Made by a program: the position numbers and the translations under genes
Source: Armatimonadota bacterium
GTDB lineage: Bacteria; Armatimonadota; Zipacnadia; JAUWAU01
Assembly (NCBI GenBank): GCA_030601885.1
Contig: JAUWAU010000003.1
Location: forward strand, 62,001 to 126,000
Direction of reading: 5' to 3'
Length of the DNA stretch: 64,000 nt
Shown here: positions 20,062 to 26,881 of the stretch, one piece after another
Layout: each line of letters opens with the position of its first letter
Position numbering within the stretch: position 1 is the stretch's first letter
The notes under the pieces: generated by a model
Databases searched by the model: none
Told to the model about the DNA's origin: nothing
Seen by the model: the letters and a program-made list of their open reading frames with translations, nothing else

Positions 20062-20928
20062 GCCTCTGCAGTACTCGACGTCGGCGGCCAGCACGTCCGC
20101 CCGCTCTTCCTGCGGCACCTTGCCGAGGGATTCGTCCTCGAGGCAGAAGCTCCTATCGTATCCCGCCGCCTTGAGCCACTCGATGACGCGGGCGTGGTCG
20201 ATATCGCCCTCGGCGATGGGGCAGACGTACTTGCCGTACTCGAAGCCCACCTCGCGCCGCTGATTGCGGATCTCCTCGGGGTAGCTGATGGCCTTCACGT
20301 GGGTGTGTTTGGCGAATGGCGCGAGGCGCTCCATGATGGCATACACCTCGTCGAGTGGATGGCCCCACCAGTAGAAGTTGCCGGTGTCGAGGGTGACGCC
20401 GAAACGATCAGAGCCGATGCGCTCCAGCGCGCCATCCAGGAACGCCGGGTCGTTCCCGCCCCAGCCGTGGTTCTCGACGCCGATGTCCACCTTCGACCCC
20501 TCGGTGGCGGCCAACACCTGCCTCACGCAATCTGCAAAGACATCCACCCTCTGCTCCACGGGCCTCTCGCGCTCGTCGATCATGATGGAGTCTATACGGA
20601 CCGCCTCAAGACCGAGGGCGTCGGCGGCTTCGACGGTGCGCGTTACCCACCGCACCTGTTCGTCGTTGTCGTCGCCGCCGAACTTGTTCATGGTGAGCAG
20701 GGCGGCGATGCGGACGCCGCATTCCTGAGCGTGGGCGCCGTATTGCAGCGCCGCCTCCGGCGAGTCGAGAGTGAACTCCGTCTTCTCACCCACCGGCTCG
20801 ATCGCCGGCACGGTCATATCCGGCGCTACCGAGATCTCCACTGCCGAGAGGCCGAGCGTCTTCAGTGCCTCACCGATGTTGGCGAATCCGGCGCCGGGAA
20901 GGATGGCATCGCGGATGGAGAGGTACAT
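20053..20928 (-). CDS. Sugar phosphate isomerase/epimerase (xylose isomerase-like TIM barrel)
   Basis: This is a 291-aa cytoplasmic barrel protein. The ATG at 20928 follows AAAGGAG. Motifs include LGLSAVEISVAPD, KVDIGVENHGWGGNDPAFLD, FGVTLDTGNFYWWGHPLDEV, FAKHTHVKAISYPEE and FCLEDESLG, giving the Glu/Asp/His metal ligands of the family. The frequent pairing of such isomerases with heparinase-type lyases suggests work on monosaccharides released by the lyase. It is the only intact copy of a gene whose C-terminal fragments also occur at 16462 and 18706. Confidence 0.88.
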   Translation of the reverse strand: MYLSIRDAILPGAGFANIGEALKTLGLSAVEISVAPDMTVPAIEPVGEKTEFTLDSPEAALQYGAHAQECGVRIAALLTMNKFGGDDNDEQVRWVTRTVEAADALGLEAVRIDSIMIDERERPVEQRVDVFADCVRQVLAATEGSKVDIGVENHGWGGNDPAFLDGALERIGSDRFGVTLDTGNFYWWGHPLDEVYAIMERLAPFAKHTHVKAISYPEEIRNQRREVGFEYGKYVCPIAEGDIDHARVIEWLKAAGYDRSFCLEDESLGKVPQEERADVLAADVEYCRGIL

Positions 20929-21156
20929 GAGGGTGTGCTCCTTTGTGGGCGGTCGTGTTCGGGCCGATGCGACATGGCCCTGTGGGGTGGTTCTTCGCCG
21001 CCCGCGAGGGGAGCACCTCTCGGGGGGCACTGCTGCGTGGGACTCGAGCCCCCGAGACAGGGAAAAGCAAAGAAGGGAATGGGCGACCACGGTGGCTGCT
21101 GGCAGCCAGTGCCGTGCTCTCCCTTTCCCCTCTTCGTTTGCCCGGCGATTCTCGTC

Positions 21157-21369
21157 TTACCGCTCGTCCGCGGGGACGCTTTGCCCGGTCTCAGGCTTCG
21201 CGTCCGTCTGTTTCCGAACTTCCTCGGTCTTCGTCTCGTCGCGCGAACCCGTCGCGCAGACGCCCGACATTCAGGTGGGCACTCCCAGCCTCGGGAGCAC
21301 GAATCCCATAAGCAAGAACCAGACGACGAATACCGCCGCCACTATCAAAAGTCCGTTAAACTCTCCCAT
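21157..21369 (-). CDS. Candidate small membrane selenoprotein with in-frame UGA
   Basis: The reading frame begins MGEFNGLLIVAAVFVVWFLL, a single transmembrane helix, and continues MGFVLPRLGVPT to a UGA at codon 33 (21273-21271). It stays in frame after the UGA with MSGVCATGSRDE and a charged Lys/Glu/Asp-rich tail to a TAA at codon 71. Read as selenocysteine, the protein would be 70 aa with a Thr-Sec-Met-Ser-Gly-Val-Cys redox-like motif. A hairpin begins eight bases after the UGA. It lies 43 bases downstream of arsR on the same strand. If the UGA is a stop, the product is a 32-residue hydrophobic peptide. Function is unknown; a thiol/selenol redox or metalloid-related role is an inference from the motif and the arsR neighbour. 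Confidence 0.6.
21232..21262 (-). promoter_or_regulatory. Putative bacterial SECIS hairpin
   Basis: On the minus strand GCGCGA (21257-21252) pairs with TCGCGC (21246-21241) around the loop CGGGT. A lower stem, CGTCT (21262-21258) with AGACG (21236-21232), is separated by a four-base bulge. The G-containing apical loop begins 20 bases after the UGA, the distance known for the E. coli fdhF SECIS. Confidence 0.5.
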
Positions 21370-21412
21370 CGCTCATTCGATCCCTATCTGCCGCCGTCGT
21401 CGCCGGCACGCG

Positions 21413-21757
21413 TCACTCACTCATTGCCGCGGCGGCGTTGTTGAGCCGGCCCGCAAGCGCCCCCTCATGCGCAAGGTGCGATGCGAGCACCTCGTTGATC
21501 ATCTCGCACGCGTCCACAATCCGCGCATCGGCCAGCGTGTAGAACACGCTTGTCCCCTCCTGCCGCCTCCGCACAACGCCAACGGTCCGCAGTCGCGCCA
21601 GATGCTGGGAAACGGTGGTCTGCGGCAGGTCGGTCGCCTCCTGAAGCTGAGCCACTGTCCGTTCCCCGTCGCGCATCACGTGCAGCAACTCAAGCCGCTT
21701 GGCGTTGGCAAGCGCTTTGCATATCTCGGCCTGACGGCGGAACAATGCTCGGTCCAT
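21413..21757 (-). CDS. ArsR-family transcriptional regulator
   Basis: This is a winged-helix repressor of 114 aa. The ATG at 21757 is preferred because GGGGGAT lies before it; an in-frame ATG at 21775 is the alternative. The helix-turn-helix core reads LANAKRLELLHVMRDGERTV and TDLPQTTVSQHLARLRTVGV, then the wing VVRRRQEGTSVFYTLAD. The ELCVC-type metal motif of ArsR/SmtB is not present (here LELLHVM), so it may sense something else, for instance through a redox signal. It seems to head a two-gene operon with the small candidate selenoprotein gene. Confidence 0.88.
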   Translation of the reverse strand: MDRALFRRQAEICKALANAKRLELLHVMRDGERTVAQLQEATDLPQTTVSQHLARLRTVGVVRRRQEGTSVFYTLADARIVDACEMINEVLASHLAHEGALAGRLNNAAAAMSE

Positions 21758-21777
21758 GGGTGTACTATCCCCCATAT

Positions 21778-21789
21778 ATATTAGAATAT
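21778..21789 (-). promoter_or_regulatory. Possible ArsR operator
   Basis: ATATT and AATAT form a 12-base inverted repeat with a two-base centre, in an AT-rich island about 20 bases before the arsR start. Autoregulatory ArsR sites commonly lie at this place. No clear -35 box could be assigned. Confidence 0.4.
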
Positions 21790-22324
21790 CCAAATACTCG
21801 GTCGGCCAAACATCCACAGCCCTTCGTTTCCACGCGAGGGCCCAGCTTGTCGCCTATCCCTATATGATAGACTCACCGTCGCCACGGATTATTCACGCTG
21901 GCGGCGTATTGCGCTGGCCAGATGGCATTGCTTCCTTGCACCCGATCAACGGACCGAACTGACTGTTGCTCGCCATTGTTTATCGGATGTACTGCATGTC
22001 GTCAAGGGATTTGCTAACTAATCCAATTGGAATACGCACATTAGAGCGGGTGACCTCTGGTGCTGCCATCCGGCACCGTCTGGAAGGAGAACTTCCCCTC
22101 TTTCAGGAATGCCCGGTGCATCGGCGTGAAACGCCGCTGCCTCCTGTACGGCACACCCACATATGTAGACGCTCAAACGCGCGAAATCGTTGCACCCGTC
22201 AATCCGGTGACGATCCTGGCGTCCGCTGTGTTCCATTGCGCGAGGGTATGATCCGCGCGGGGCGCAAGGAGCGGCGTCAGGCGATGTCGAACATCCCGTG
22301 GCCGCACGGCACGAGGTGACGGCC
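21790..22324. other. Gap without recognisable gene
   Basis: About 535 bases between the divergent arsR and UroD-family genes. The first half has lower GC content than its surroundings. I see no coding signature, RNA gene or repeat; short frames here have no ribosome-binding site and no family resemblance. Confidence 0.5.
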
Positions 22325-23425
22325 ATGAACGGCTACCAGCGCATGATGGCGGTGATGCGAGGCGAGCAGCCGGATCGGGTCCCTATCTGGGAGCTGATCG
22401 TGAATGAGCCCGTGATCCGCGCGTTGCGAGGCGAGGTGAGTTATCACGATTTCGTCGAGCTCGAGGACCTCGACGGCGTCACCATCTTCGAGGATCAGCA
22501 GATCGCAGAGCGGCTCGACGAGTCAACGTACCGGGACGAGTGGGGAATCGTGTGGCAGATCGATGCGCCAGAGATTCCCTACCGGGTTGACGGGCCCATA
22601 AAGAGCGAAGCGGACCTGGACGGCTACAACGCGCCTGATCCGGATGCCGACCATCGGCTGAAGACGCTGGAGGAGGCCGTCACGCGCTTCAAGGGCGAGC
22701 GGGCTATTACCTTTCTGGGGCACGACGCCTTCGAGTTCTCCCACTATCTGCGCGGCATGGACCAGCTCCTCATGGACTACGTGCTCAACCCGGGACTCGC
22801 GCGCCGACTCGCCCGCCTCGTCACCGACTACAAGAAGCGCGTCCTGGAGCGGGCCATCGAGATGAGCGCCGACATCGTGCTCACGGGCGACGACTACGCC
22901 CACCGCACCGCTCCCATCATGTCGCCGGCGCATTTCGAGGAGTTCGTGCTCCCCTATCTGCAGGAAATGGTAGACGTGGCCAAGGGCGCGGGCGTCCCCT
23001 TCATCAAGCACACGGACGGGAACTTGTGGCCCATCATTGACATGATCGTTGACACGGGCATCGACGCGCTGGACCCGCTCGAGCCCATCGCCGGCATGGA
23101 CATCGGCGCGGTGAAGCAGCGATACGGCGACCGGATCGCGCTGTGCGGGAACGTGGACTGCGGCGAGCTGCTCTGCCACGGCACTCCGGAGGATGTGGTC
23201 GAGGCGGTCAAGGAAACGCTCGCCAAGGCTGCCGGCGCCCGCCACATCCTGGCCTCCAGCAACAGCATCCATCCGGCCGTGAACCCACAGAATTACCGCG
23301 CCATGGTCGAGGCCGCGAAGGAGTTTGGGCGGTGTCCGCTGGACGCGCAGATGGTGGAGGAGTATCGGGAGAGGAACTACATCGAGAGCTTTGGGGGATC
23401 GAGCGTTTCGATTCCAGGGAGATAG
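22325..23425 (+). CDS. UroD-family protein 1 (methyltransferase-like)
   Basis: This 366-aa TIM barrel belongs to the uroporphyrinogen decarboxylase/MtaA-MtbA-CmuA superfamily. The ATG at 22325 follows GAGGTG. It has the family opening YQRMMAVMRGEQPDRVPIWE and VLTGDDYAHRTAPIMSPAHF. Near the active site is IKHTDGNLWPIIDMIVDTGI, with Asp where zinc-binding methyltransferases have Cys (HxCG). The end has LASSNSIHPAVNPQNYRAMV. True HemE is unlikely because HemE invariants such as the N-terminal RxPVWxMRQAGR are absent. It is the first of four tandem same-strand paralogues and probably acts in methyl transfer or decarboxylation of an unknown substrate. Confidence 0.85.
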   Translation: MNGYQRMMAVMRGEQPDRVPIWELIVNEPVIRALRGEVSYHDFVELEDLDGVTIFEDQQIAERLDESTYRDEWGIVWQIDAPEIPYRVDGPIKSEADLDGYNAPDPDADHRLKTLEEAVTRFKGERAITFLGHDAFEFSHYLRGMDQLLMDYVLNPGLARRLARLVTDYKKRVLERAIEMSADIVLTGDDYAHRTAPIMSPAHFEEFVLPYLQEMVDVAKGAGVPFIKHTDGNLWPIIDMIVDTGIDALDPLEPIAGMDIGAVKQRYGDRIALCGNVDCGELLCHGTPEDVVEAVKETLAKAAGARHILASSNSIHPAVNPQNYRAMVEAAKEFGRCPLDAQMVEEYRERNYIESFGGSSVSIPGR

Positions 23426-23467
23426 CGACGGCAGGCGGCGCGGGTGCCTGGGCGGGGCGACTGGTGT

Positions 23468-23507
23468 GAGATTCTTCACTCCGCCTCCGGCTCCGTTCAG
23501 AATGACA
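23468..23507. repeat. Half copy of the GTCATYCTGAG-family repeat
   Basis: GAGATTCTTC and TTCAGAATGAC, in the short gap between two UroD-family genes, match one arm of the elements at 5721-5820 and 52621-52759. Confidence 0.65.
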
Positions 23508-23544
23508 ATGAGCCGAGCCGGTGCCAATCTTCTGTGAGGACAAC

Positions 23545-24645
23545 ATGGCGCTTTCGGACCGTGAGAACTACATACGCACGGCGAGGATGACGGGGCCGGA
23601 ATGGATGCCCTGCCACGTGAGCATCTCGGGCGCGTCGTGGGATCAACTGCGGGGCGATCTGGAGGACGTGCTCGTGCGGCATCCGACGCTGTTTCCGGGC
23701 TTCAGGAAGGGGCAGCGTGACTTCGAGAACTGGGACTTCGGGCCAGCGAATCGAGCGCGCGAGCGATACACGGATGCGTGGGGGTGCGTGTGGCACAGCG
23801 AGATCGACGGCATCGAGGGGGTCGTGGAGGAGCACCCGCTCGCGGACTGGAGCAAGCTCGACAGCTACACGCCGCCGGATCCGATGGTGCAGGCGGATCG
23901 CGGGCCGGCCCACTGGGAGGCAGCGCGGGAGCGCGTGGAGCGAGCGCGCGCCAAGGGACAGCTCACCTCGGGAGGCGTGCCGCACGGGTTCTTCTTCATG
24001 CGCCTGTATTACCTGCGCGGCTTCGAGAACCTGATGGCGGACATCGCCACGAACGCGCCGCAGCTTCCGCGGCTCATCGACGTGCTGCTCGAGCACAACC
24101 GGACCATCGCGAGCCAGTGGCTGAGCTTCGGTGTGGATATGGTTCAGTTCGGCGAGGACCTGGGCACGCAGACAGCGTCCGTGATCAGTCCCACCGCTTT
24201 CGCCAAGTGGATCACGCCGGTATACAAGGAGCTGATGCAGCCGTATCGCGACGCCGGCGCGCTCGTGGCGCTGCACAGCGACGGGTACATCATGGAGTTG
24301 ATCGATGAGCTCATCGCCGCCGGCGTGGACATCATCAACCCACAGGACCTGTGCAACGGCATCGACAACCTGGCCCGCGAGGTCAAGGGGCGGATGTGCA
24401 TTCGGCTCGACATCGACCGGCAGAAGATCGTGCCCTTCGGCACCCGCCGCGACATTCACGAGCTGATCGAAGAGGAGGTGCGCAAGCTCGGGTCGTCGCA
24501 AGGGGGCCTCGAGCTGGGCGCCGGCATATACCCGCCCACGCCCGCCGAGAACCTGGACGCGCTGTGCGAGGCGATGGAGGAGTTCCGGACGTACTGGTGG
24601 GATGGGCGGGGGAGGAGGCTGAGGCGGAGCAATGACGCCGCGTGA
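23545..24645 (+). CDS. UroD-family protein 2
   Basis: This 366-aa paralogue starts at an ATG six bases after GAGG. It shows MVQFGEDLGTQTASVISPTA and FAKWITPVYKELMQPY, then LHSDGYIMELIDELIAAGVD. It again has HxDG rather than the zinc-type HxCG. It contains DIINPQDLCNGIDN and ends with GIYPPTPAENLDALCEAM. Its stop overlaps the next gene by 14 bases, so the two are cotranslated. The opening RENYIRTARMTGPEWMPCHV diverges from the usual RERxxxxLxxxxPDRVP. Confidence 0.85.
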   Translation: MALSDRENYIRTARMTGPEWMPCHVSISGASWDQLRGDLEDVLVRHPTLFPGFRKGQRDFENWDFGPANRARERYTDAWGCVWHSEIDGIEGVVEEHPLADWSKLDSYTPPDPMVQADRGPAHWEAARERVERARAKGQLTSGGVPHGFFFMRLYYLRGFENLMADIATNAPQLPRLIDVLLEHNRTIASQWLSFGVDMVQFGEDLGTQTASVISPTAFAKWITPVYKELMQPYRDAGALVALHSDGYIMELIDELIAAGVDIINPQDLCNGIDNLAREVKGRMCIRLDIDRQKIVPFGTRRDIHELIEEEVRKLGSSQGGLELGAGIYPPTPAENLDALCEAMEEFRTYWWDGRGRRLRRSNDAA

Positions 24646-25759
24646 ACGCTTACTGACAGCGCTGGCGCATCGGCAGCCCGACCGGGTGCCCACGGACCTG
24701 GGCGGCATCGTCACAGGCATCGCCGTGGAGGCGTACCAGGGGCTGCTGGGGCACTTCGGCCTCGAAGAGGACATCATCATCAGCGACCAAAAGCAGCAGC
24801 TCGCACTTCCCAGCGACGAGGTGCTCCAGCGGCTCGGGGTGGACACGCGTTATCTGCTCCCCGGCGCGCCTCAGTCGTGGACGCTCGACATCCATGAGGA
24901 CGAGACGGGTCACACGTACGTGGACGAGTGGGGCATCACGGTGCGGATGCCCAAAGAGAATGGCTACTACTTCGACATGGTCGCCCATCCCCTCGCCGAC
25001 CTCGACACGGCCGACCTGGCCCATTATCCCTGGCCCGACATGCGCGACCCGGGCTACACCGAGGGGATGCCGGAGCGGGCGCGGGACCTATACGAAAAGA
25101 CCGACTACGCCCTGGTCACCCGCAACGCCGGATCGATCTTCGAGCGTGCGTGGAACCTGCGCGGGCTTGAGAACTTCCTGATCGACCTGATGACGGACGA
25201 GGCGTTCGTGAACGCGCTCATGGACAAGCTGCTGGAGCTGAACATGGCGTTCCTGGCGGAGTATCTCGGAGCCATCGGCCGGTACATCCAGGTCGTCGCC
25301 CTCAGTGACGACCTCGGGACGCAAAGGGGGCCGATGATCTCGCCGGAGTTGTACCTGAGGTTCGTGAAGCCGCGCCAGAAGGAGCTGTTCGCCTTCGTGA
25401 AAGAGCGCACCGACGCCTGCGTCTTCTTCCACACGTGCGGCTCGGTGTACCGGTTTATCCCCGACCTCATCGAGGTGGGAGTGGACGCGCTCAACCCGGT
25501 CCAGGTCTCGGCCGCAGAGATGGACACCCGCCGCCTGAAGGACGAGTTCGGCGATCGGCTCAGCTTCTGGGGCGCCGTGGATACGCAGCAGGTGCTGCCC
25601 TTCGGGACGCCGGAGGACGTGCGAGAGGAGGTGCGCCAGCGGATCGGCGACCTTGGGACGAATGGCGGCTACGTGCTCGGGGCGGTGCACAACATCCAGG
25701 CGGGAGTGCCGGCGGAGAACATCGTGGCGATGTATGAAGAGGCAATGGCCAGTGGTTAG
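24632..25759 (+). CDS. UroD-family protein 3 with HTCG zinc-type motif
   Basis: This 375-aa protein opens MTPRERLLTALAHRQPDRVP. The central VVALSDDLGTQRGPMISPEL is the family substrate loop, and FFHTCGSVYRFIPDLIEVGV has the His-x-Cys-Gly pair that binds zinc in MtaA/MtbA methylcobamide:thiol methyltransferases. Later come VDTQQVLPFGTPEDVREEV and GGYVLGAVHNIQAGVPAENI. The zinc motif suggests transfer of a methyl group to or from a thiol or corrinoid. No corrinoid-binding protein gene is adjacent. Confidence 0.88.
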   Translation: MTPRERLLTALAHRQPDRVPTDLGGIVTGIAVEAYQGLLGHFGLEEDIIISDQKQQLALPSDEVLQRLGVDTRYLLPGAPQSWTLDIHEDETGHTYVDEWGITVRMPKENGYYFDMVAHPLADLDTADLAHYPWPDMRDPGYTEGMPERARDLYEKTDYALVTRNAGSIFERAWNLRGLENFLIDLMTDEAFVNALMDKLLELNMAFLAEYLGAIGRYIQVVALSDDLGTQRGPMISPELYLRFVKPRQKELFAFVKERTDACVFFHTCGSVYRFIPDLIEVGVDALNPVQVSAAEMDTRRLKDEFGDRLSFWGAVDTQQVLPFGTPEDVREEVRQRIGDLGTNGGYVLGAVHNIQAGVPAENIVAMYEEAMASG

Positions 25760-25776
25760 TGGTCAGTGAAGGATTG

Positions 25777-25802
25777 GCGGGCCACAGGTGCCCGCCTACA
25801 GT
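25777..25802. repeat. Short palindromic repeat, CTACAG family
   Basis: GGCGGGC and GCCCGCC form a hairpin followed by TACAG, in the gap between UroD-family genes 3 and 4. It is related to units at 29507, 43558, 43596 and 57772. Confidence 0.6.
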
Positions 25803-25822
25803 ACGACTTCAGGAGAAGCGAG

Positions 25823-26881
25823 ATGACATCGCGAGAACGCGTCTCGATGGTGCTGAATCACGAGGAGCCGGACCGGGTGCCGATCCACGACAGTCCCTGG
25901 GGACACACGGTGGAACGGTGGCGGAAGGAGGGGCTGCCGCAGGATCAGTCGCCCGCCCAGTACTTCGGTTACGAGATCACCAACCAGGGCGCCGATCTAT
26001 CGCTGCAGCTTCCCGAGGAGACGATCGAGGAGACCGATACATACCGCGTCTTCAAGGACGCCAACGGCGCGGTGCGGCGCAAGTTCAAGGATCACGAGTC
26101 CACGCCCGAGTGCATCGACTTCACTATAACGAGCCGGGAGATCTGGGAGGAGTACAAGCCGCGCATGGCCTGGAACGACACACGGGTCGATTGGGAGAAC
26201 GCATTGGCGGCCAACCGCGCCTTGCGCCAAGGCGATAAGTTTGTGTGCTACAGCGCCGCCTTTGGCTACGATAAGATGCAGGGCTTCGTTGGGTCACAGC
26301 GGCTGCTGATGTCGATGGTCGAGGATCCCGACTGGGTCAAGGACATGTTCGATACCGCCGTTGATTTGCTCATCGCTGCGTGCGAGGAGATGCTGGCACG
26401 GGGCTTCGAATTCGATGGCGCCTTCGTGTACGATGACATGGGCTACCGAAACGCCGCGCTGTTCTCGCCGGCAGCCTATCGGGCGATGGAGTTCCCCTCA
26501 CAGAAGCGCATGTGCGATTACTTCAAGAGCAAGGGGCTGCCCGTGATCCTGCACACCTGTGGCTGCGTGCGAGAGTTCATGCCGATGCTCGTCGAGGCGG
26601 GCTTTTCCTGCATACAGCCGCTCGAGGTCAAGGCGGGCATGGACCTGGTGGAGCTGAAGGAGAACTTCGGCGGCCAGGTTGCATTCATGGGCGGCATCGA
26701 CGTGCGCGCCATGGCCGACCCGGATCCGGCGGTGATCGAGGAGGAAGTACGCACGAAGATCCCCATCGCCAAGAAAGGCGGCGGCTACATCTACCACTCG
26801 GATCACTCAGTGCCGAGCAACGTGAGCTTCGAGCAGTACTGCCGGACGATGGAGCTGGTGCACGAATACGGGAAGTATTGA
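25823..26881 (+). CDS. UroD-family protein 4 with HTCG zinc-type motif
   Basis: This 352-aa protein has its ATG after AGGAG. It opens MTSRERVSMVLNHEEPDRVP. It has DGAFVYDDMGYRNAALFSPA and ILHTCGCVREFMPMLVEAGF with the HxCG zinc pair. PLEVKAGMDLVELKENFGGQ and YHSDHSVPSNVSFEQYCRTM follow. It is closest in pattern to the UroD-like proteins found beside sugar-catabolic genes in Armatimonadota and Planctomycetota. The substrate is unknown. Confidence 0.87.
   Translation: MTSRERVSMVLNHEEPDRVPIHDSPWGHTVERWRKEGLPQDQSPAQYFGYEITNQGADLSLQLPEETIEETDTYRVFKDANGAVRRKFKDHESTPECIDFTITSREIWEEYKPRMAWNDTRVDWENALAANRALRQGDKFVCYSAAFGYDKMQGFVGSQRLLMSMVEDPDWVKDMFDTAVDLLIAACEEMLARGFEFDGAFVYDDMGYRNAALFSPAAYRAMEFPSQKRMCDYFKSKGLPVILHTCGCVREFMPMLVEAGFSCIQPLEVKAGMDLVELKENFGGQVAFMGGIDVRAMADPDPAVIEEEVRTKIPIAKKGGGYIYHSDHSVPSNVSFEQYCRTMELVHEYGKY

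Follow-up and report, generated by a model that had tools for sequence, protein, structure and literature searches.

The SECIS of the E. coli fdhF gene is a hairpin directly past the UGA, with a G in its apical loop. Cysteine is the usual counterpart of selenocysteine (Sec). In SelK and SelS, one helix is followed by a charged tail, and Sec lies near the C-terminus. According to a 2026 catalogue of 119 selenoprotein families (PMC13188914), most characterised selenoproteins adopt a thioredoxin-like fold. The bacterial SECIS (bSECIS) model given there calls for a loop of 3-9 nt with G in its first two bases, located 16-37 nt from the UGA, and a minimum free energy (MFE) of -7.5 kcal/mol or lower. 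Table 1 of the same source includes Sec in SelD and a putative mercuric transport selenoprotein, PF02411, with the motif C/SxxU.

The family described here is represented by one gene in the window, that is, the whole stretch of 64,000 nucleotides that was analysed. It shares with the prokaryotic selenoproteins of the catalogue, as outlined there, an in-frame UGA, a bSECIS with an apical G, Cys homologues and SelB-bearing hosts; catalogued selenoproteins are often thioredoxin-like, whereas members of this family are predicted to have a single helix with a UxxxxC motif. The placement of the hairpin and the G of its apical loop are like those of fdhF, in a different gene. SelK and SelS, which are eukaryotic, are likewise small selenoproteins that cross the membrane once and have a part that is charged and disordered, a likeness for which we claim no homology; the present family differs in being bacterial and in having Sec at the membrane edge, near the middle of the protein. 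The mercuric transport selenoprotein is alike by name, through membrane transport and metal resistance, but belongs to another Pfam family with another motif, and no PF02411 match was found here.

A small gene with an in-frame UGA

The minus-strand open reading frame begins with MGEFNGLLIVAAVFVVWFLLMGFVLPRLGVPT, and its first 32 codons, which end in LPRLGVPT, are followed by TGA. Another 37 codons (MSGVCATGSRDETK...ADER) then continue in frame as far as a TAA. The Sec site reads UMSGVC, with a cysteine five residues past the TGA. The layout given in the preliminary description, a UGA at codon 33 with 37 further codons and the motif UMSGVC, was thus reproduced on the minus strand. Coordinates are collected below. 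The gene for an ArsR-family regulator lies upstream on the same strand, separated by 43 bases; it ends in TGA itself, in agreement with the earlier statement that UGA is also an ordinary stop here.

Features of the candidate selenoprotein locus, in positions of the window
Feature	Coordinates	Strand	Remarks
Small candidate selenoprotein gene	21157..21369	-	ATG 21369-21367; TAA 21159-21157; 70 residues, Sec at 33
In-frame TGA, codon 33, read as Sec	21271..21273	-	Same codon in relatives
Single transmembrane helix, about residues 7-25 (predicted)	21295..21351	-	Hydrophobic stretch and AlphaFold2 helix
LPRLGVPT motif, residues 25-32, just before Sec	21274..21297	-	Conserved in alignments
Cys38, UxxxxC partner of Sec33	21256..21258	-	Cys at +5 in most TGA loci
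Bacterial SECIS hairpin core, 7-bp stem	21240..21258	-	Loop CGGGU 21251-21247; positional conservation, synonymous-codon null, covariation
arsR-family regulator gene	21413..21817	-	Directly upstream; ends in TGA

The reading of this frame as a selenoprotein gene with a SECIS holds up and is very probably correct, with Sec insertion deduced from the codon, the hairpin and the machinery. The gene would then encode a single-pass membrane selenoprotein of 70 residues. Ribosomes would meet the UGA at codon 33, the hairpin just 3' of it would bring SelB with Sec-tRNA-Sec, and Sec would be inserted, with translation running on to the TAA.

The mechanism of Sec insertion is already known; the sources consulted do not contain the protein family, which is new to that extent. 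No NCBIfam model fits the window protein, 17 members or any of 50 members at E <= 0.01, and Pfam offered no convincing family for the window protein or the 17 members. The best candidate, PF04602 (best E 0.00096), matched 5 of the 17 members at E <= 1, the window's not among them, and was set aside as a chance match in a hydrophobic helix. A tblastn search of the read-through sequence against plasmids gave nothing convincing (8 records, E 0.5-10). A description of the family was not found in the open PMC literature, a scope that leaves subscription papers and preprints outside, nor does Table 1 of PMC13188914 hold such an entry. Gene prediction that treats the UGA as a stop would report a fragment of 32 residues, which would explain a family without a name.

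Relatives and the conservation of the UGA

Relatives were retrieved without demanding TGA at codon 33. A search with the read-through protein against 101 genomes, its own included, found 16 loci besides that of the window at E <= 2.9e-4, weaker matches not being taken as family, and the same codon is TGA in 16 of 16. A profile search of 291 Armatimonadota genomes yielded 30 loci with E of 2.5e-7 or lower, and the codon is TGA in 28 of them and codes for Cys in 2; 6 of the 36 matching genomes (E 4.7e-4 to 0.01) were left out. Among Acidobacteriota, the family occurs in 93 of 396 genomes at E <= 1e-4, about a quarter of those sampled. Loci from 30 of these 93 genomes were inspected (29 TGA, 1 Cys), and the others were judged by stops inside the frame.

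Named genomes were scanned solely with the pattern [WFY][VL]LP[RK][LF]GVPT, the Sec column being masked as X. Pattern matches numbered 186, of which 130 were confirmed as relatives, and in the best 80 of those 130 (L078-L157) TGA is the next codon after the pattern in 80 of 80; the genomes behind all of these counts are related and are not independent samples. By record titles, the taxa are Armatimonadetes, Acidobacteria, Planctomycetota, Zixibacteriota, Eisenbacteria, KSB1, Calditrichaeota, Latescibacterota, Krumholzibacteriota, Spirochaetota, Actinomycetota, Anaerolineae, Rokuibacteriota, Myxococcota and Deltaproteobacteria, and the records are metagenome-assembled in nearly all cases. By these sequence searches, the candidate family is widespread across many bacterial phyla and is not a local novelty.

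The UGA is conserved in homologues, with conserved residues on either side of it. Homologues extend beyond residue 32, and most keep Ser at +2 and Cys at +5, as would be expected of a translated extension. Homologues with Cys at position 33, for which a search had been proposed, were seen in three cases: L053 and L054, both from Armatimonadota, and L184 from Acidobacteriota. Cys is the sole alternative residue at the Sec site among inspected loci, at frequencies of 2 in 30 for Armatimonadota, 1 in 30 for inspected Acidobacteriota and 0 in 80 for the named loci. The three Cys forms hold both cysteines, reading CMSGAC, CCSGPC and CMSGAC.

Before the Sec site, Pro26, Gly29 and Thr32 are invariant and Leu25 nearly so in the 30-row alignment A2; alignment A7 shows more invariant motif positions, its relatives having been selected by an LPRLGVPT-type motif. 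After the Sec site, the counts refer to 121 distinct loci, obtained from 124 rows by removing 3 duplicates. Ser at +2 is spelled by TCN codons in 53 of the 121 and by AGY codons in 35, and this use of both codon sets suggests that the amino acid is under selection. Cys occurs at +5 in 104 of the 121 distinct TGA loci (TGC in 81 and TGT in 26 of the 124 rows, duplicates included) and somewhere from +4 to +10 in 116. Five TGA-form loci (L016, L017, L056, L061 and L138) have no Cys in the 12 residues past Sec. To judge from these alignments, TGA-form members do not strictly need the UxxxxC pair. At another locus, L059, five inserted residues place the Cys at +10 instead of +5, and the hairpin is still about 24 nt from the TGA; the protein spacing changed there while the RNA element held its distance. 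Beyond the Cys, the tail shows little conservation outside the part covered by the hairpin. A VxSRR-like stretch past the Cys coincides with the hairpin and is missing in the three Cys forms; the stretch is on that ground taken to be imposed largely by the hairpin, and it probably reflects the SECIS.

The same loci bear on a reading in which the TGA is a true stop, closing a membrane peptide of 32 residues, with coupled restart of a second small reading frame at the ATG directly past the TGA. The codon past the TGA is in fact ATG in 90 of the 121 loci, and ATG, GTG or TTG in 93. The other 28 have no such start codon (ACG, GCG, GGG and TTC are examples), and the three relatives with a Cys codon in place of TGA are read through in one continuous frame. 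Stop and restart would also fail to explain why all 80 named loci (the best 80 of 130) use TGA and not TAA or TAG, why a hairpin with a loop G lies at SECIS distance, and why the family co-occurs with SelB in Acidobacteriota. We rejected this reading on the start codons and the Cys forms, and consider it highly improbable.

The hairpin and the selenocysteine machinery

The preferred reading, Sec at the UGA, calls for a SECIS. The hairpin in the window has 7 bp and the five-base loop CGGGU, with the loop 19 nt past the UGA and an energy of -9.4 kcal/mol, values that lie within the constraints of the bSECIS model (PMC13188914). A five-base, G-containing loop at 19 nt had been reported before and was found again; the stem had been placed eight bases past the UGA, but in its contiguous form it starts 12 nt past the UGA, and the full minimum-energy fold starts a few bases past it. 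Folding of this region had been proposed as a check. The window sequence alone folds within chance (z -0.87, with 35 of 200 shuffles folding equally well), whereas comparison of the relatives takes the hairpin far beyond chance.

When hairpin centres were scanned across 101 rows, the strongest position was 27 nt past the T of the TGA (mean -5.5 kcal/mol), followed by 24 nt (-2.5) and, in third place with a value near the second, by a position 16 nt before the TGA (-2.2). Taken one by one, 70 of the 121 distinct loci have their best hairpin centred at 27 nt, and 19 have it at 24 nt. Mean hairpin energy is -8.88 kcal/mol, compared with -2.79 in synonymous recodings that drew on local or pooled codon usage (n=120, z -24.3), and 95 loci have a hairpin of -6 kcal/mol or lower where 19 were expected. 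This position-specific test replaced a comparison of whole-segment MFE with synonymous recodings, which was dropped as a test for its lack of specificity (mean z -0.91 for the post-UGA segment vs -0.78 for an upstream control).

The loop contains G in 57 of 58 rows in one register and in 20 of 20 rows in the other, one of these 20 being a duplicate. The pair in question, L007 = L102, contributes one duplicate to the 101-row profile, the loop-G rows, the MFE test and the set of 103 loci used for neighbours below. Stem sequence varies widely within the family, and the SECIS is kept by base-pair covariation: across 46 ungapped sequences, from the 58 loci in that register, double changes occur in 8 of 8 pairs, with 97 cells vs 23.1 +/- 6.8 after shuffling and at most 29 after sliding, and 86.4% of cells pair vs at most 45.9%. 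Contiguous hairpins with bSECIS geometry and an energy of -7.5 kcal/mol or lower, the energies being those of the unbroken stem-loop and not of the whole segment, were found in 86 of 121 loci; another 23 fall between -4 and -7.5, and 12 do neither (constraints from PMC13188914). An Rfam search of positions 20800-21900 returned matches only far below gathering scores. The alignments bring together a large number of natural bacterial SECIS hairpins whose pairs covary.

Among the Cys forms, no hairpin was found in L053, a weak one in L184 (-4.0 kcal/mol) and a strong one in L054 (-11.2 kcal/mol). The L054 hairpin (G267:C465) has the loop GGC at SECIS distance, in a genome with no detected selA, selB or tRNA-Sec, and is perhaps a relic of lost Sec use.

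The genome of the window encodes selA (contig C82), selB (C70), a tRNA-Sec with anticodon TCA (C10:302387) and selD, so that all four components named for a check by the preliminary description are present. In the stretch G000 C10:301262-302481 (L188, L062), this selD lies about 200 bases from the tRNA-Sec gene, and it has an in-frame TGA of its own, in the context VRCAGUASK. This TGA sits at the place of the known Sec of SelD. Across Acidobacteriota, SelB was found in 87 of 92 genomes with the TGA form and in 199 of 303 family-free genomes (Fisher p 2e-9). For the named loci, the genomes of 50 of the 80 were tested and SelB was found in 42. A SelB match is absent from 5 of the 92 Acidobacteriota genomes and from 8 of the 50. 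Co-occurrence with SelB is not significant in Armatimonadota (22 of 28 TGA-form genomes vs 197 of 291 overall, p 0.14). Six Armatimonadota genomes with the TGA form have no SelB wing domain; selA, selB or tRNA-Sec was found in three of these (G096, G074 and G073), and no confirmed Sec marker in the other three (G101, G118 and G065), which are fragmented, with completeness of 72-88%. A match to the tRNA-Sec model above cut-off in G101 is called tRNA-Ser by ARAGORN.

The full Sec machinery was found in none of the three genomes with Cys forms. G267 has no selA, no selB above cut-off and no tRNA-Sec; G524 has no SelB, the only marker searched there; and G160 has no selA or tRNA-Sec and a wing-domain match alone, in a frame of 253 residues. 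Wing-domain matches in frames of 253-321 residues occur in G160 (G160:C1:3468-3590) and in several genomes of the same genus (g35), possibly as decayed or split SelB.

A hairpin right after a stop codon can promote read-through generally. The TGA and its hairpin might on this ground serve SECIS-independent read-through or regulation, such as near-cognate decoding or attenuation. There is very little chance of this, we believe, since the geometry and the loop G fit the bSECIS model, the selD of the same genome also has an in-frame TGA, at its known Sec place, Cys is the sole other residue at the site among inspected loci, and SelB co-occurs with the family in Acidobacteriota.

Structure, genomic neighbours and possible role

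For the read-through protein, AlphaFold2 with 50 aligned sequences predicts one helix, residues 2-27, followed by coil. The pLDDT is 83-95 over the first 30 residues (blocks of 10), with a mean of 71.6 and a pTM of 0.39. A profile search of the PDB gave no match at E <= 1. Over 80 loci, the residues ahead of the helix carry a net charge of about -0.75 and the nine that precede Sec about +1, the positive charge of these nine being partly fixed by the search pattern; the 15 residues past Sec are near neutral. By the positive-inside rule, these values weakly suggest a cytoplasmic C-terminus. The helix would place LPRLGVPT-Sec-MSxxC at the edge of the membrane, probably facing the cytoplasm.

The UxxxxC spacing is that of the redox pair in flavin disulfide reductases. 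This makes it plausible that Sec33 and Cys38 form a selenol/thiol pair able to close into a selenenylsulfide. Such a pair could reduce or bind reactive species at the membrane, a conjecture based on the motif and on genes that occasionally lie nearby (those for ArsR, DUF302, OsmC-like and RND efflux proteins), and the ArsR regulator encoded upstream may control the window gene. A redox role, judged by motif and neighbours, seems to us about evenly poised. The preliminary description had stated that Sec at this place would define a new small redox protein; the redox role stays at the level of conjecture.

The neighbours are mostly diverse. A gene of the arsR type is found on the same strand no more than 1 kb upstream at 5 of 103 loci, that of the window included, and at 4 of 101 with the window and one duplicate removed, which is still an enrichment (p 0.007): 4 of 79 vs 5 of 752 other ORFs, or 5 of 81 vs 5 of 768 with the window and the duplicate retained. 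HTH_5 occurs in 4 of the 70 nearest upstream ORFs on either strand. The description of the gene as arsR-linked is therefore true of this locus and a minority of others and is not a trait of the family, in which adjacency to arsR is not consistent. A DUF302-type cluster supplies 6 of 92 adjacent same-strand ORFs vs 1 of 739 others (p 1e-5) with the window and one duplicate excluded, and 6 of 93 vs 1 of 756 with them. Genes for RND, fusion-protein and TolC-like products, named from their sequences, recur within 6 kb in some loci; most loci have no adjoining arsR or efflux pump. These neighbours suggest a membrane-associated stress or detoxification function, and nothing more specific. At one locus (L144:1-8125), genes for ArsR, DUF302, the small selenoprotein, a DUF2892-like protein, TolC, a fusion protein and an RND pump stand nearly in a row; the names at L144 were read from sequences, whereas DUF302, HTH_5 and OEP were counted by Pfam among the nearest neighbours of the set.

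Chemically, a selenol/thiol pair could plausibly bind soft metals. Rather than a redox enzyme, the protein might thus be an anchor for mercury or other metal(loid) ions that it passes to ArsR-controlled efflux pumps. The arsR gene upstream here and at four other loci (within 1 kb, same strand) is consistent with this, as are the RND, fusion-protein and TolC-like genes that recur within 6 kb of some; yet neither adjoins most loci, and the ArsR of the window scores highest with HlyU (4k2e), 2kko and the ArsR-family regulator 6o8k, its nearest solved relatives, not with the metal sensors SmtB, CzrA and NmtR. Weaker matches of this ArsR are Rv0081 (6jmi) and a biofilm growth-associated repressor (3pqj). 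We regard the anchor as possible but unlikely. A little less likely again is a single-pass membrane adaptor in the manner of SelK and SelS, with a Sec tail that tunes partner complexes. The layout is similar, with one helix ahead of a charged tail, which AlphaFold2 models as coil, but the tail past the Cys shows little conservation apart from the part that the hairpin covers, and Sec comes just past the helix instead of near the C-terminus.

Returning to the Sec/Cys pair, we think it fairly probable that these proteins form a class of single-helix membrane selenoproteins that spans phyla and has been overlooked, its members carrying Sec in nearly every case, and that the pair, at the membrane face, would make up all of their active machinery. 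If so, each would be a minimal selenoenzyme or a soft-metal trap, sometimes under the control of a stress regulator, and the class would be among the more widespread unannotated bacterial selenoproteins. It would add a type of selenoprotein that shows no sign of a thioredoxin-like fold, and would offer a very small, testable system for the advantage of Sec over Cys at a membrane.

Elsewhere in the window, at 22298-26881, four consecutive plus-strand ORFs of 371-375 residues look, from their translations, like tandem paralogues of the uroporphyrinogen-decarboxylase/MtaA-like kind.
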